IMG/VR virus record: IMGVR_UViG_3300042516_001195
Location: 1 to 46,225 of that record
Reading direction: 5' to 3' (one strand)
DNA from: a virus
Length of the DNA stretch: 46,225 nucleotides
In this document: positions 24,303 to 29,694 of the stretch, in pieces
How the letters are laid out: every line of letters starts with the position of its first letter
Numbering within the stretch: position 1 is the first letter of the stretch
The notes under the pieces: generated by a model
Told to the model about the DNA's origin: nothing
Databases searched by the model: none
What the model saw: only the letters and a program-made list of their open reading frames with translations
Position numbers and translations under genes: made by a program

Positions 24303-25697
24303 TTAAACTAAACCACGAATCAGCCTTTTTATCGGCTTACCCCATGAACTGCTCTTTCCCCAAGAAATGGTGGCAGCATCTGAGGCAAATGTCAACACAA
24401 ACGCATCAGCCATGTCAGGAGATTTCAGTCCCCTGCGTCTAATATCGTCCTTTGACTCAATTTTTATCTTGCCATTAGAGGTAAATGTGTACCGGACTGT
24501 AGCCAATTCGGCAATCAAATCCTCGTTATTGGGTATCTTGCAGTCCCGTTTCTCCAGCCAAGCCTTAGCTTTGTGCCACAACTCAGCCCTGAGATTAAGA
24601 TAAGTACCACCCATAGCCGGACTTTCAGACACGTTGATCCCACGGGCAGGAAGGTTCAACTCCCTTAACCGATCCACCACACCAGCCCCCAGACCGATAC
24701 TGTCAACCAGGATCTCGGTAGGACGGTTCTTATGGTCACAAGCTTCGTACTGAGCCACCACAGCACCCGTCAATTGCATCAGGTCCAAGTTCCTCCACCT
24801 CTCAAGAGTATGCACCACGTTAGATTGACGCTTACACAAAACTGACGAGTCGGAACCAAACCGCGCAACGTCCAGCCCCCAAACGATGGGAGCATCCTCG
24901 TAGGCACGGGTATCTCTATGTTTGGCAGTATCTAGTAGCTCCATAGGGATGATGGTGTCGTCATCACTTCTAGGAAACTCTCCAAGAACACGGATACGGA
25001 AGGCGTTACTCTCCTCTCCGTACCTGGACTTCATGTCATTGACGTACTCATCACTGACCCGTTTGGAGTCAACGCAGGACACCCGCTTAGTCCACCACTC
25101 GTCTTTTAGTCGGTTGTGTGTGTCAAAAAAGAACCCGGAAGACCGGACAGGGTTACCCAAAAGGATGGTCAAAGCATTGTGACCAGACATAGAACCAGCA
25201 GCGGCCTCAAACACCGCTTCAGGCACACCAGAAGCCTCATCAGCCACCAGCATAACGTTATCCGAGTGAACCCCTTGCAAAGCTTCAGGTTGTTCTGCTC
25301 TACTCGTTCTAGCAGAGATAAACGCTTCAGTAGAACTGGCCTTCAGTTCAATACGTTCCTGTTTGACATCAAGAAGATCTTGGATAGGTTGGGGTAGTTC
25401 CTTAACCCATCTCTTGAGTTCGGCAAACAAAGCATCATAGAGTTGGGCAGAAGTGGGAGCAGTAACCACCACCTTTACCGGATACCTTGTCAACAAGAAC
25501 CAAAGCATAGCCCAAGAAGCGGTTGTACTCTTACCAACCCCGTGGCCGGAACGGATGGAGATTTTCCTCTCTCCTGTCGCCACAGCATTCAGAAAGTCCT
25601 GTTGCCATTCATCAGGCTCTACTCCTAGAACCTCTTTTACAAACTTAACAGGGTCGTTTCTGTAAAGCTTAATAAACTCAATAAACGGGTTATTCAT
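24303..25697 (-). CDS. Terminase large subunit, phage A (464 aa)
   Basis: ATP-driven packaging motor and headful or site-specific nuclease. Walker A is GHGVGKST (51-58), Walker B VMLVADE (148-154). Then LLGNPVRSSG (coupling motif) and FRIRVLGEFP at the linker. The nuclease RNase H fold has GLDVARFGSD (Asp276), EILVDSIGLGAG, and SPDMADAFVLTF for the last acidic residues. Full length. It overlaps the small subunit by eight bases and precedes a terminator. It differs clearly from the partial terminase at 45663-46225. Confidence 0.95.
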   Translation of the reverse strand: MNNPFIEFIKLYRNDPVKFVKEVLGVEPDEWQQDFLNAVATGERKISIRSGHGVGKSTTASWAMLWFLLTRYPVKVVVTAPTSAQLYDALFAELKRWVKELPQPIQDLLDVKQERIELKASSTEAFISARTSRAEQPEALQGVHSDNVMLVADEASGVPEAVFEAAAGSMSGHNALTILLGNPVRSSGFFFDTHNRLKDEWWTKRVSCVDSKRVSDEYVNDMKSRYGEESNAFRIRVLGEFPRSDDDTIIPMELLDTAKHRDTRAYEDAPIVWGLDVARFGSDSSVLCKRQSNVVHTLERWRNLDLMQLTGAVVAQYEACDHKNRPTEILVDSIGLGAGVVDRLRELNLPARGINVSESPAMGGTYLNLRAELWHKAKAWLEKRDCKIPNNEDLIAELATVRYTFTSNGKIKIESKDDIRRRGLKSPDMADAFVLTFASDAATISWGKSSSWGKPIKRLIRGLV

Positions 25698-26276: not shown

Positions 26277-26286
26277 GGGTAAACCC
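26277..26286. promoter_or_regulatory. GGGTAAACCC operator-like site 1
   Basis: GGGTAAACCC, an inverted repeat (GGGT/ACCC) with two central bases, followed by TA. One of a family of dispersed sites in phage control regions. Confidence 0.5.
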
Positions 26287-26327: not shown

Positions 26328-26352
26328 GGGTAAACCCCAATAGGGTAAACCC
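26328..26352. promoter_or_regulatory. GGGTAAACCC operator-like sites 2 and 3 (tandem)
   Basis: Two copies of GGGTAAACCC at 26328-26337 and 26343-26352, start-to-start 15 bases apart in the same orientation. The second is extended to TAGGGTAAACCCTA. Close paired copies are typical of cooperative binding by a DNA-binding protein. Confidence 0.55.
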
Positions 26353-26643: not shown

Positions 26644-26653
26644 GGGTAAACCC
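26644..26653. promoter_or_regulatory. GGGTAAACCC operator-like site 4
   Basis: GGGTAAACCC followed by TATTAGGG, about 125 bases before the first rightward gene. Same core as the other sites. Confidence 0.5.
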
Positions 26654-27437: not shown

Positions 27438-27623
27438 ATGAAAACATATATAGTGACAATTGTTCGATCTAGTTTTGTTGAAATTACAGTTGATGCCAAC
27501 AGCAAAGATGAAGCTGAAGCATTGGCCTGGGCAGAACAAGATCGTATGCAGTATGAGTGGAATCCCTCTGATGATTGGGAAACACTCAGCATCGATCAGA
27601 TGTTTGCGAGGGAGGAAGCATGA
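27438..27623 (+). CDS. Hypothetical early protein (61 aa)
   Basis: ATG at 27438 lies nine bases after ACGGA; an ATG three codons earlier is too close to that SD. MKTYIVTIVRSSFVEITVDA with EAEALAWAEQ and an acidic Trp-containing end fits a small beta-alpha-beta protein often seen in phages. The stop overlaps the next ATG (ATGA). Confidence 0.6.
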   Translation: MKTYIVTIVRSSFVEITVDANSKDEAEALAWAEQDRMQYEWNPSDDWETLSIDQMFAREEA

Positions 27624-28378
27624 AAAACCCTTACAAAACTATTCTGGAATCACTGGGTTTGCCCTACAAAACCATCCTTGGTGAATCGTCTGCTAAGACA
27701 ATCAAGGGCGAATCCATTGGTTACCTGACAGGAATCGTCTACCTTAAACCCGATCACAAAATTTGTTCGATGGCCCGATCAGCGGGTTGTATGTTTGGCT
27801 GTTTGGAATCGGCGGGACGGGGCGCATTCAATTCTGTACAGCAAGCAAGGATTAGCAAAACCCGATTCTTTTATGACAATCAGCAAGCCTTTTTGTTGTC
27901 GTTTGCTGCCGATGTTTGGTCTATTCAAAACAAAGCCAAAAAGCAAGGGTTCACCCCATTGGTTAGACCTAATGGGACATCAGATATCCCTTATGAGAAT
28001 TTGATTGTTTGGGACAACAAAAACATTTTCCAATTGTTTCCCGATGTGCAGTTTTACGATTACACAAAACACCCAGCAAGGAACCTGACAGGCAAAACTG
28101 CTGGCAACTATGATTTGACCTATTCTTTTAGCGCTGTCACACCTAAGCCCATCACAATCAAGGGTCTACAGAATCCAAACAATTCCAGGGTGGCTGTTGT
28201 TTTCCAAAAGCAAGCTGACATTCCTTTGAACTTTAGGGGTTGGGATGTGATCGATGGGGATAACACTGATGTGCGACACATAGAACCCAAAAATGTAGTG
28301 GTGGCTTTGTACGCTAAAGGAAAAGCCAAAAAAGACACATCAGGGTTCACTCAGATCTTAGGAGTGCACTATTCATGA
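27620..28378 (+). CDS. GP88-like cysteine-motif phage protein (252 aa)
   Basis: Residues 49-61 give C-x7-C-x3-C (ICSMARSAGCMFGCL) followed by ESAGRG. Later come LVRPNGTSDIPYEN (~114-127), FYDYTKHPARN (~145-155), YDLTYSFS (~164-171) and a C-terminal DGD/RH segment. This combination is typical of the GP88-like family in phages, whose biochemical role has not been settled. The cysteines may bind a metal or cluster. It is the largest gene of the rightward operon and overlaps both neighbours by ATGA. Family call from memory. Confidence 0.6.
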   Translation: MKNPYKTILESLGLPYKTILGESSAKTIKGESIGYLTGIVYLKPDHKICSMARSAGCMFGCLESAGRGAFNSVQQARISKTRFFYDNQQAFLLSFAADVWSIQNKAKKQGFTPLVRPNGTSDIPYENLIVWDNKNIFQLFPDVQFYDYTKHPARNLTGKTAGNYDLTYSFSAVTPKPITIKGLQNPNNSRVAVVFQKQADIPLNFRGWDVIDGDNTDVRHIEPKNVVVALYAKGKAKKDTSGFTQILGVHYS

Positions 28379-28551: not shown

Positions 28552-28724
28552 AAACAAAAAACCAAATTGGTCAAATTGGAGTTATCACTACCCAGGATAG
28601 TGTGTCCCTGTGGACAGTCACCGGGGTGCATGAATTGGGTCTAATCGTTTGCTTATGCGACAACTTAGAACAATCGCAAAACGTCAGCAGCGAGAATTTT
28701 TGGGTGTTGGTTGACAGTCTTTAA
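28548..28724 (+). CDS. Hypothetical early protein (58 aa)
   Basis: MKTKNQIGQIGVITTQDSVS, ending FWVLVDSL. Predominantly beta with two nearby cysteines (VCLC). Last gene of the rightward operon, followed 18 bases on by a terminator. No family recognised. Confidence 0.55.
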   Translation: MKTKNQIGQIGVITTQDSVSLWTVTGVHELGLIVCLCDNLEQSQNVSSENFWVLVDSL

Positions 28725-28742
28725 GTGACAATTCCAAAGAAT

Positions 28743-28766
28743 CCCGGATTCGTTCCGGGTTTTTTT
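28743..28766 (+). terminator. Rho-independent terminator of the rightward small-gene operon
   Basis: CCCGGA, five-base loop, TCCGGG, then seven T. It lies 18 bases after the last stop codon. Confidence 0.9.
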
Positions 28767-28780
28767 GGGTTTGCCAAGTT

Positions 28781-28794
28781 AGTGAGTACTCACT
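28781..28794. promoter_or_regulatory. Perfect 14-bp palindrome (operator-like)
   Basis: AGTGAGTACTCACT, a perfect palindrome. A near-copy with the same arms lies at 28948-28961. It stands just before a possible promoter (TACAAT at 28819). Confidence 0.55.
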
Positions 28795-28830
28795 TCAAGC
28801 GCATCGATTTAAAAGGTCTACAATCGATTT

Positions 28831-28890
28831 TCCGAGTTTTGGCATAGTAGGTATGCACCAGCACAAAAAGCCGCTTCTATGGGCTTTTTG
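28831..28890 (+). ncRNA. Possible small RNA with terminator
   Basis: A TACAAT hexamer at 28819-28824 could start a short transcript near 28831 that contains the hairpin GCATA-N5-TATGC (around 28842-28856). It would end at AAAAAGCC...GGCTTTTT (28865-28889), a hairpin with A and T runs that can terminate in either direction. The -35 match is poor, so this is only a candidate; the hairpin may simply be a bidirectional terminator for the two converging operons. Confidence 0.3.
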
Positions 28891-28947
28891 AGGGCATTCT
28901 AGGGGCATTGTCACTGGTGTCTCATGCGCTGCTGTGTTTTCAGGTGA

Positions 28948-28961
28948 AGTGAGTGCTCACT
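28948..28961. promoter_or_regulatory. Second AGTGAG-N2-CTCACT palindrome
   Basis: AGTGAGTGCTCACT: same arms as 28781-28794 with centre TG in place of TA. The two centres are 167 bp apart. Confidence 0.5.
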
Positions 28962-28973
28962 TTCACTCTATTA

Positions 28974-28983
28974 GGGTAAACCC
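28974..28983. promoter_or_regulatory. GGGTAAACCC operator-like site 5
   Basis: GGGTAAACCC within TTAGGGTAAACCCTA, 13 bases after the second palindrome. This copy lies between converging genes rather than at an operon start. Confidence 0.5.
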
Positions 28984-29055
28984 TAGGTCGGGGGTGAAAA
29001 ATGAGGGTTTTCAAAAAAAACTCATTTGGTATTTCAGAAGTGAAGTTAACCAATT

Positions 29056-29090
29056 TTTGAGATCTCAAAGTTTTTGAAAGTTTTGAGATT
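29056..29090. repeat. TTTGAGATCTCAAA palindrome plus a further TTTTGAGAT copy
   Basis: A perfect 14-bp palindrome at 29056-29069 and a half-site TTTTGAGAT at 29081-29089. Together the three arms could form alternative hairpins at the end of the leftward early operon. No T-run follows on the minus strand, so a terminator is doubtful. Confidence 0.45.
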
Positions 29091-29107
29091 CCAATGTATT
29101 TTGTATT

Positions 29108-29371
29108 TCAAACGAATTTAAAGAGATTCTCTATTGTTTTATTTAGAGCATCTATTTCATCCATCTTTTTAATTGACCACATTCTCTTTTGACCATGCCA
29201 ACCTAATACTGGTCCTCTGTGGCAATCAGGACATAATGCAACGCAGGTATATTGAAGCCCTTGTTTGATATGGTGGGCCTCACTTGGTCCAGGGGCATCA
29301 CACACTGAGCAAGGCAACTCTTTAATGTTTGCCAGATGTATGCGCTCTTCTTTGTTTAATTTGTTGTTCAT
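29108..29371 (-). CDS. HNH nuclease, Ref-like (87 aa)
   Basis: ATG at 29371 (MNNKLNKEERIHLANIKELP) overlaps the previous stop (ATGA); earlier in-frame starts are inside that gene. Zinc/HNH residues: CSVCDAPGPSEAHHIKQG, then LCPDCHRGPVLGWHGQKRMW. Paired CxxC motifs with HHI and CH-G...HG-R match the short recombination-enhancing (Ref-like) HNH nucleases. Probably a DNA nuclease acting in recombination or host DNA breakdown. Last gene of the leftward early operon. Confidence 0.75.
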   Translation of the reverse strand: MNNKLNKEERIHLANIKELPCSVCDAPGPSEAHHIKQGLQYTCVALCPDCHRGPVLGWHGQKRMWSIKKMDEIDALNKTIENLFKFV

Positions 29372-29694
29372 CCGACATTCCTGGCTTCTGCTCGGGCTGA
29401 GTACTGAGTGGTGCGCCATACTTCTATTCGGGCTTGGGCAGCAGTCATCAGCCAGCGATAGTTCTCCTCACGCTCTACAGATACTTTGATGCCCTCAAGG
29501 ATCTCAATGTAGTCAGGGTGAGCATAGGCGTATATCTCTTGCTTACCCAACACTGTCTCTTGACAACCCTTCATCAGCTTTGCTTTCACTGACTTCCGCA
29601 TTTCCTCTAGGTACATCCGGTTTGCTTTCGCTTGGGCGTACAAAGGAGCCGTGTCCATTAAATACTGGATGGCTTTGTTTGGGTTTATCTCCAT
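29368..29694 (-). CDS. Conserved phage hypothetical protein (108 aa)
   Basis: MEINPNKAIQYLMDTAPLYA; contains AKANRMYLEEMRKSVKAKLM, YAHPDYIEILEGIKVSVERE and LMTAAQARIEVWRT. This is a very recognisable phage early-region family seen beside Ref-like or RusA genes, without known function. Helical and charged. Start region overlaps the 108-aa ribbon-type gene by about 150 bases in another frame. Confidence 0.7.
   Translation of the reverse strand: MEINPNKAIQYLMDTAPLYAQAKANRMYLEEMRKSVKAKLMKGCQETVLGKQEIYAYAHPDYIEILEGIKVSVEREENYRWLMTAAQARIEVWRTTQYSARAEARNVG

Follow-up and report, generated by a model that had tools for sequence, protein, structure and literature searches.

The nucleoid occlusion factor SlmA belongs to the TetR family and is reported to antagonise FtsZ when it is bound to DNA, with two dimers on each site, and an E. 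coli cell is described as holding 300-400 SlmA copies and 24-52 chromosomal sites (PMC4423959). The published 12-bp consensus of the SlmA-binding site (SBS) is GTGAGTACTCAC (PMC3116907). An in-vitro consensus oligonucleotide, SBScons (AAGTAAGTGAGCGCTCACTTACGT; PMC4423959, with the same oligonucleotide in PMC7468209 and PMC9974302), was reported to be bound tighter than two native sites (PMC4423959). A lethal division block by SlmA in the presence of multicopy tandem SBS is described in published work, and with such sites a 4-fold rather than a 40-fold increase of SlmA was reported to be enough (PMC4117426). Residue R73 is described as needed for FtsZ regulation, the R73D protein being defective, and structures of SlmA have been solved (database entries). 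In the open-access literature, no description of SlmA sites on phage genomes was found among the matches listed.

Layout of the convergent interval

The window, i.e., the whole stretch of DNA that was analysed, is a 46,225-base IMG/VR virus record, and the interval under study is the convergent gap between a + strand operon and a - strand gene. An earlier note, made from the letters alone, had placed in this gap a terminator, palindromes, a TACAAT box, a hairpin, a near-copy of the first palindrome and a GGGTAAACCC site, all of which were found there. The features of the gap and of its surroundings are as follows:

24303-25697, - strand: terminase large subunit (TerL); PHROG 2, E 6.7e-50, with TerL matches in named phages
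27620-28378, + strand: Gene product 88 (GP88) family gene of the + strand operon; PF17338, E 2.9e-36
28743-28759, + strand: terminator of the + strand operon; 6-pair stem with 5 G-C pairs, then a T run (terminator scan)
28776-28799, no strand: site 1, SlmA-binding-site-like; palindrome core 28781-28794, which includes GTGAGTACTCAC
28810-28915 (approximate), no strand: conserved core between the two sites; in other phages partly the 3' end of an HNH-like gene
28819-28824, + strand: TACAAT box; -35 box not recognised
28865-28889, both strands: terminator-like hairpin with arms AAAAAGCC...GGCTTTTT, flanked by A and T runs
28943-28966, no strand: site 2, SlmA-binding-site-like; palindrome core 28948-28961
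28974-28983, + strand: GGGTAAACCC, exact copy (5 in the window)
29056-29069, no strand: third palindrome, TTTGAGATCTCAAA; in the window only
29108-29419, - strand: converging gene, 103 aa; PHROG 1588, function unassigned in PHROG

The core of site 1 is a perfect 14-bp palindrome, AGTGAGTACTCACT, and that of site 2 is a near-copy of it, AGTGAGTGCTCACT; both sites lie about 3.1 kb upstream of the TerL start. The hairpin at 28865-28889 had been taken for a second terminator. It does form in a single-sequence fold and has the A and T runs of a terminator, but it is absent from the list of the terminator scan. Similarly, the promoter scan listed no + strand promoter at the TACAAT box. No Pfam match was obtained for the converging 103-aa gene, whose product looks HNH-like by our own reading.

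Rarity and conservation of the palindromes

The AGTGAG palindromes are found at only two places in the 46,225 bases when one mismatch is allowed, which gives 4 strand-matches against 0.01 expected from 100 shuffles; at three mismatches there was no excess in the window (6 against 6.94 expected). Relatives were gathered by protein homology, not by the palindromes; the 80 best loci were taken for each of two genes, the HNH-like one and GP88, and in the profile collection of relatives a strict limit and an overlap filter were applied. The gap could be aligned in 37 loci including the window, corresponding to 30 distinct sequences (the loci L008 and L087 are one contig). Among the 220 alignment columns of these 30 sequences, window included, 37 are invariant, and 16 of them fall within the 28 palindrome columns (p 1.4e-7). 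The view that this gap holds control-type DNA under selection is thus borne out, since conservation is found outside the terminators, in the palindromes themselves.

By profile score, at least two sites are present in 35 of the 37 loci, and a single site is kept in L004 and L005. The left site and the right site nearest to it are 166-170 bp apart in 29 of these 35 loci, and 159 (four loci), 177 or 194 bp apart in the others. In many relatives a third SlmA-like site stands where the window carries GGGTAAACCC. Conservation in related phages holds for the AGTGAG pair but not for the third palindrome at 29056-29069, which was found in 0 of the 36 other alignable loci. A blastn search with 28600-29300 gave no match in 50,697 named phage records. 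Between the sites, TACAAT or TAGAAT stands at the box position in 24 of the 30 distinct sequences. In all 14 tested relatives that share only the core (a fifteenth, L112, was left out), the HNH-like gene has its stop codon within this core, so that the conserved block consists in part of a displaced gene end.

Likeness to SlmA-binding sites

The 12-bp SlmA consensus is exact in site 1 and has one difference in site 2 (GTGAGTGCTCAC). For comparison beyond the core, a profile was built from 336 distinct phage sites, which reads GTWAGTRAGYRCTYACTWAC; its core was set by the search and its flanks were free. On this profile SBScons scores 32.4 of 35.3 possible, and the E. coli sites SBS17 and SBS12 score 10.9 and 9.6, with background fractions of 2e-6 to 5e-5 for the scores of the published oligonucleotides. 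In the window, site 1 is the best place (26.9 of 35.3 possible) and site 2 scores 21.3, and no other non-overlapping place scores above -3.

The flanks GTT, GTA or CGA stand at 320 of 488 phage half-sites, against 17 of 180 half-sites of bacterial pairs; in the E. coli oligonucleotides SBScons, SBS17 and SBS12 together, 5 of the 6 half-sites have them. In the 20 array loci that were obtained by protein homology only, GTT or GTA was found at 39 of 62 half-sites. Because these flanks match those of published SlmA sites and were not imposed by the search, they support the reading of the phage sites as SlmA sites. The window itself is partly off consensus, with GTT and TGA at site 1 and TGA and GAA at site 2, so that the GTW flank of the 20-bp form GTW...WAC, present at 277 of 488 phage half-sites, is present at 1 of 4 in the window.

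Site clusters in other viruses and in bacteria

A pattern of paired sites on the 14-bp core was found in at least 120 viral stretches, against 0 for a composition-matched control. From the fetched viral loci 148 distinct arrays were obtained, with 2-5 clustered sites each and a few spanning more than one cluster; most of these loci were fetched with site patterns, and 20 of the 160 protein-homology loci carry an array by the strict definition. TerL was found with two TerL profiles in 66 of the 148 array loci, and the array lies 5' of TerL in all 66, at 83-3633 bp, a range into which the window fits with its distance of about 3.1 kb. The arrays are outside supported genes in 144 of 145 cases (3 of the 148 were left out for length). 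Among 118 of them, 78 stand between divergent genes, 24 between genes in tandem and 16 between convergent genes. Twenty-two virus records (34-128 kb), all picked from records already known to carry sites, contain 63 copies of the strict 14-mer and none of the reversed control; it forms one cluster in 16 records, is present as a single site in 3 and stands at more than one place in 3. Sigma-70-like promoters are no commoner at the arrays than expected (16 against 19.9, and 13 against 19.8 for the opposite strand). No site cluster was found in nine named phage records with two different patterns, and short blastn queries built from arrays gave weak matches only.

Some loci have features of their own. 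L014 and L054 carry two separate site clusters per contig, of which one in L054 is near the HNH-like gene and the other about 3 kb off. In L142, L148-L150, L153, L155, L159 and L160 the order is array, G tract (GGGGGGTGGGGGG), G+C-rich inverted repeat, AT-rich tract and gene; this region, which lies toward the terminase side, could be a packaging or replication site. GGGGC follows directly after the sites in L422, L426, L440, L470 and L486, with repeat units of about 30-33 bp in several of them. In Rhizobium phage B1VFA (L570, MT770738.1), 28 places are within one mismatch of AGTNAGYRCTNACT, against 1 for the control. They are mostly AGTAAGCACTTACT-like, dispersed over 122 kb, and related to the window site but distinct from it, and they are perhaps operators of the phage's own regulator.

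The exact copies of the GGGTAAACCC repeat in the window are all on the + strand (26277-26286, 26328-26337, 26343-26352, 26644-26653 and 28974-28983), the first four lying between the + strand operon and the terminase side, and with up to one mismatch 10 are found against 1.66 expected. In the fetched phage loci 237 copies occur in 110 of 163, the reversed control being rare, and the repeat is common both in loci that carry arrays and in loci that lack them (105 against 2 and 101 against 4 for the control). A host motif is not indicated, with 136 matches against 131 for the reversed control in 31 bacterial genomes.

In a genome collection of 84,980 species the pair pattern was found in 77 stretches, about 58 of them from Actinobacteria by record name; the remaining matches are from Bacillota, Nannocystis, a few alphaproteobacteria and one betaproteobacterial bin (L563). 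The occurrence of core pairs in such varied bacteria means that the core alone is not unique to SlmA. In the actinobacterial loci among L493-L568 and in the alphaproteobacterial L538, L550 and L566, the core pairs have other flanks, e.g., CGG, and they are probably operators of other regulators. The L563 contig carries a terminase large subunit with 75.5% identity to a named one and, by our own reading, appears to encode a phage portal as well. Exact 14-mers are not enriched in 60 genomes of the order of L563 (19 against 25 for the reversed control), and 4 of the 19 sit on this phage contig. Furthermore, in 229 genomes of the class the strict motif shows no general excess, with a few exceptions such as 27 against 11.

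SlmA homologues in the order of L563

SlmA passed the curated cut-off in 47 of the 60 genomes of this order, including the L563 bin, and in 1 of 14 control genomes, which was taken to be E. coli. Four homologues from the order are 45-47% identical to E. coli SlmA. They keep SEAALYRHF, T33, F65 and N102 and have R73 replaced by L and R101 by K (residues counted on the E. coli sequence). The leucine at position 73 is a point against a division block in such hosts.

Proposed function of the palindromes

On the evidence of sequence, the window palindromes are best read as an SlmA-recruiting element that most likely acts as a DNA-borne division inhibitor, to which we give a probability of roughly 0.4. 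According to this proposal, the two palindromes would form a small SBS cluster for the nucleoid occlusion factor of the host, and each site would take an SlmA dimer of dimers; it is DNA-bound SlmA that antagonises FtsZ. During phage replication, genome copies loaded with SlmA would become distributed through the cell and interfere with assembly of the Z-ring. The host would then stay undivided during infection, and a phage protein would not be required. Division block is our first choice because a replicating phage with at least two near-consensus sites would resemble a 2xSBS plasmid. The sequence, clustering, conservation and position of the sites come from this analysis, and the specificity of SlmA and the multicopy-site division block come from the papers; from these we infer a host that has SlmA, the binding of SlmA to these sites, and division block as the selected function.

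The steps of this proposal differ in strength. That host SlmA binds the predicted sites seems quite probable. The proposal as a whole is supported by the consensus in site 1, the profile and its flanks, the at least 120 paired stretches against none, the conservation, and the SlmA of the L563 bin. The lack of chromosomal enrichment, the non-unique core, the off-consensus window flanks and the nine named phages without clusters count against it. If SlmA does bind, division block may be given about even odds, regulation of the late region or packaging would be distinctly less likely, and some other use less likely still.

In the main rival reading, the same host protein serves the late region instead, as repressor, activator or DNA organiser for the terminase operon or for packaging, or perhaps as a timer of copy number, SlmA being titrated by the replicating phage DNA. 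We consider this unlikely on the whole, while the position of the arrays speaks for it: upstream of TerL wherever TerL was detected, almost always outside supported genes, mostly between divergent genes and at one place in most whole records. This fixed place is not predicted by division block alone, and it points to late transcription or packaging as an alternative function or an additional one; for a candidate pac/cos packaging site, the feature observed is the location of the arrays upstream of TerL. V. cholerae SlmA is reported to activate transcription at chb (PMC5519180), and an SBS placed between the -35 and -10 boxes to repress lacZ, but an E. coli SBS upstream of the promoter is described as leaving lacZ unaffected. 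The missing excess of sigma-70-like promoters also speaks against such a use, as does the situation in the window and its nearest relatives, where the sites lie between converging genes and TerL is about 3.1 kb away.

Another binder, i.e., a phage regulator, the terminase small subunit or another host TetR-type protein, with convergence as the origin of the likeness to SlmA sites, is improbable in our judgement. The core pairs in Actinobacteria, Bacillota, Nannocystis and alphaproteobacteria and the dispersed related site of phage B1VFA are consistent with it, but the bacterial pairs differ from the phage sites in their flanks. Two candidate DNA-binding families, RHH-like phage proteins by our own reading, were found in 15 and 12 of the 148 array loci, against 89 and 91 of 324 others, and were rejected as binders since they are not associated with the arrays. 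The small RNA that the earlier note had thought possible is highly improbable; it would start at the TACAAT box (28819), end in the hairpin (28865-28889) and have site 1 for an operator. The conserved box, the terminator-like hairpin downstream of it and the centre of site 1 about 30 bp upstream would suit this reading, but no -35 box accompanies it, and in relatives part of the core belongs to the 3' end of the HNH-like gene. When the 30 sequences were folded together on the + strand, only pairing between the palindromes was obtained, with a double change in 1 of 11 pairs, and no conserved fold of the core. Rfam gave no family at threshold, the single snoRNA match (E 0.14) being below the cut-off. 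In single-sequence folds the + strand is ordinary (z -1.2) and the - strand is stable (z -5.1), being closed at its base by the two inverted palindromes; the latter result, the only fold that stood out, points the other way.

If division block through captured SlmA is the right reading, phages would halt host division by DNA alone, using a checkpoint protein that is active only when bound to DNA, and a recurrent non-coding element of many environmental phages would be explained. It would also give a clue to the hosts of the array phages, namely bacteria with SlmA, and this reading is testable directly in E. coli K-12 with existing SlmA constructs. More generally, we tentatively propose, with less than even confidence, that many environmental phages disguise their DNA as nucleoid, whether the genes around the element are divergent, tandem or convergent. 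Near-consensus SlmA sites in clusters would set nucleoid occlusion against the host cell itself and would make each genome copy a division inhibitor. Such a takeover step would consist of DNA and would not need a phage protein.

Comparison with known systems

The SBS of the E. coli and V. cholerae chromosomes share with the phage sites the 12-bp consensus and the 20-bp flank preferences. On the chromosomes, as described in the sources, the sites are dispersed (24-52 in E. coli), and the two native examples compared are off consensus, whereas those of the phages occur in clusters, lie mostly between genes and are for the most part upstream of TerL. The engineered multicopy 2xSBS plasmids pHC534 and p2SBSK have, like the phages, at least two sites on multicopy DNA, and they are reported to make SlmA block division; unlike the phage case, they are man-made and phage-free, and SlmA was raised about 4-fold. 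The Kil peptide of phage lambda is described as stopping host division, as is proposed here for the phage sites. However, Kil is a phage peptide, whereas the agent proposed here would be phage DNA together with a host protein.
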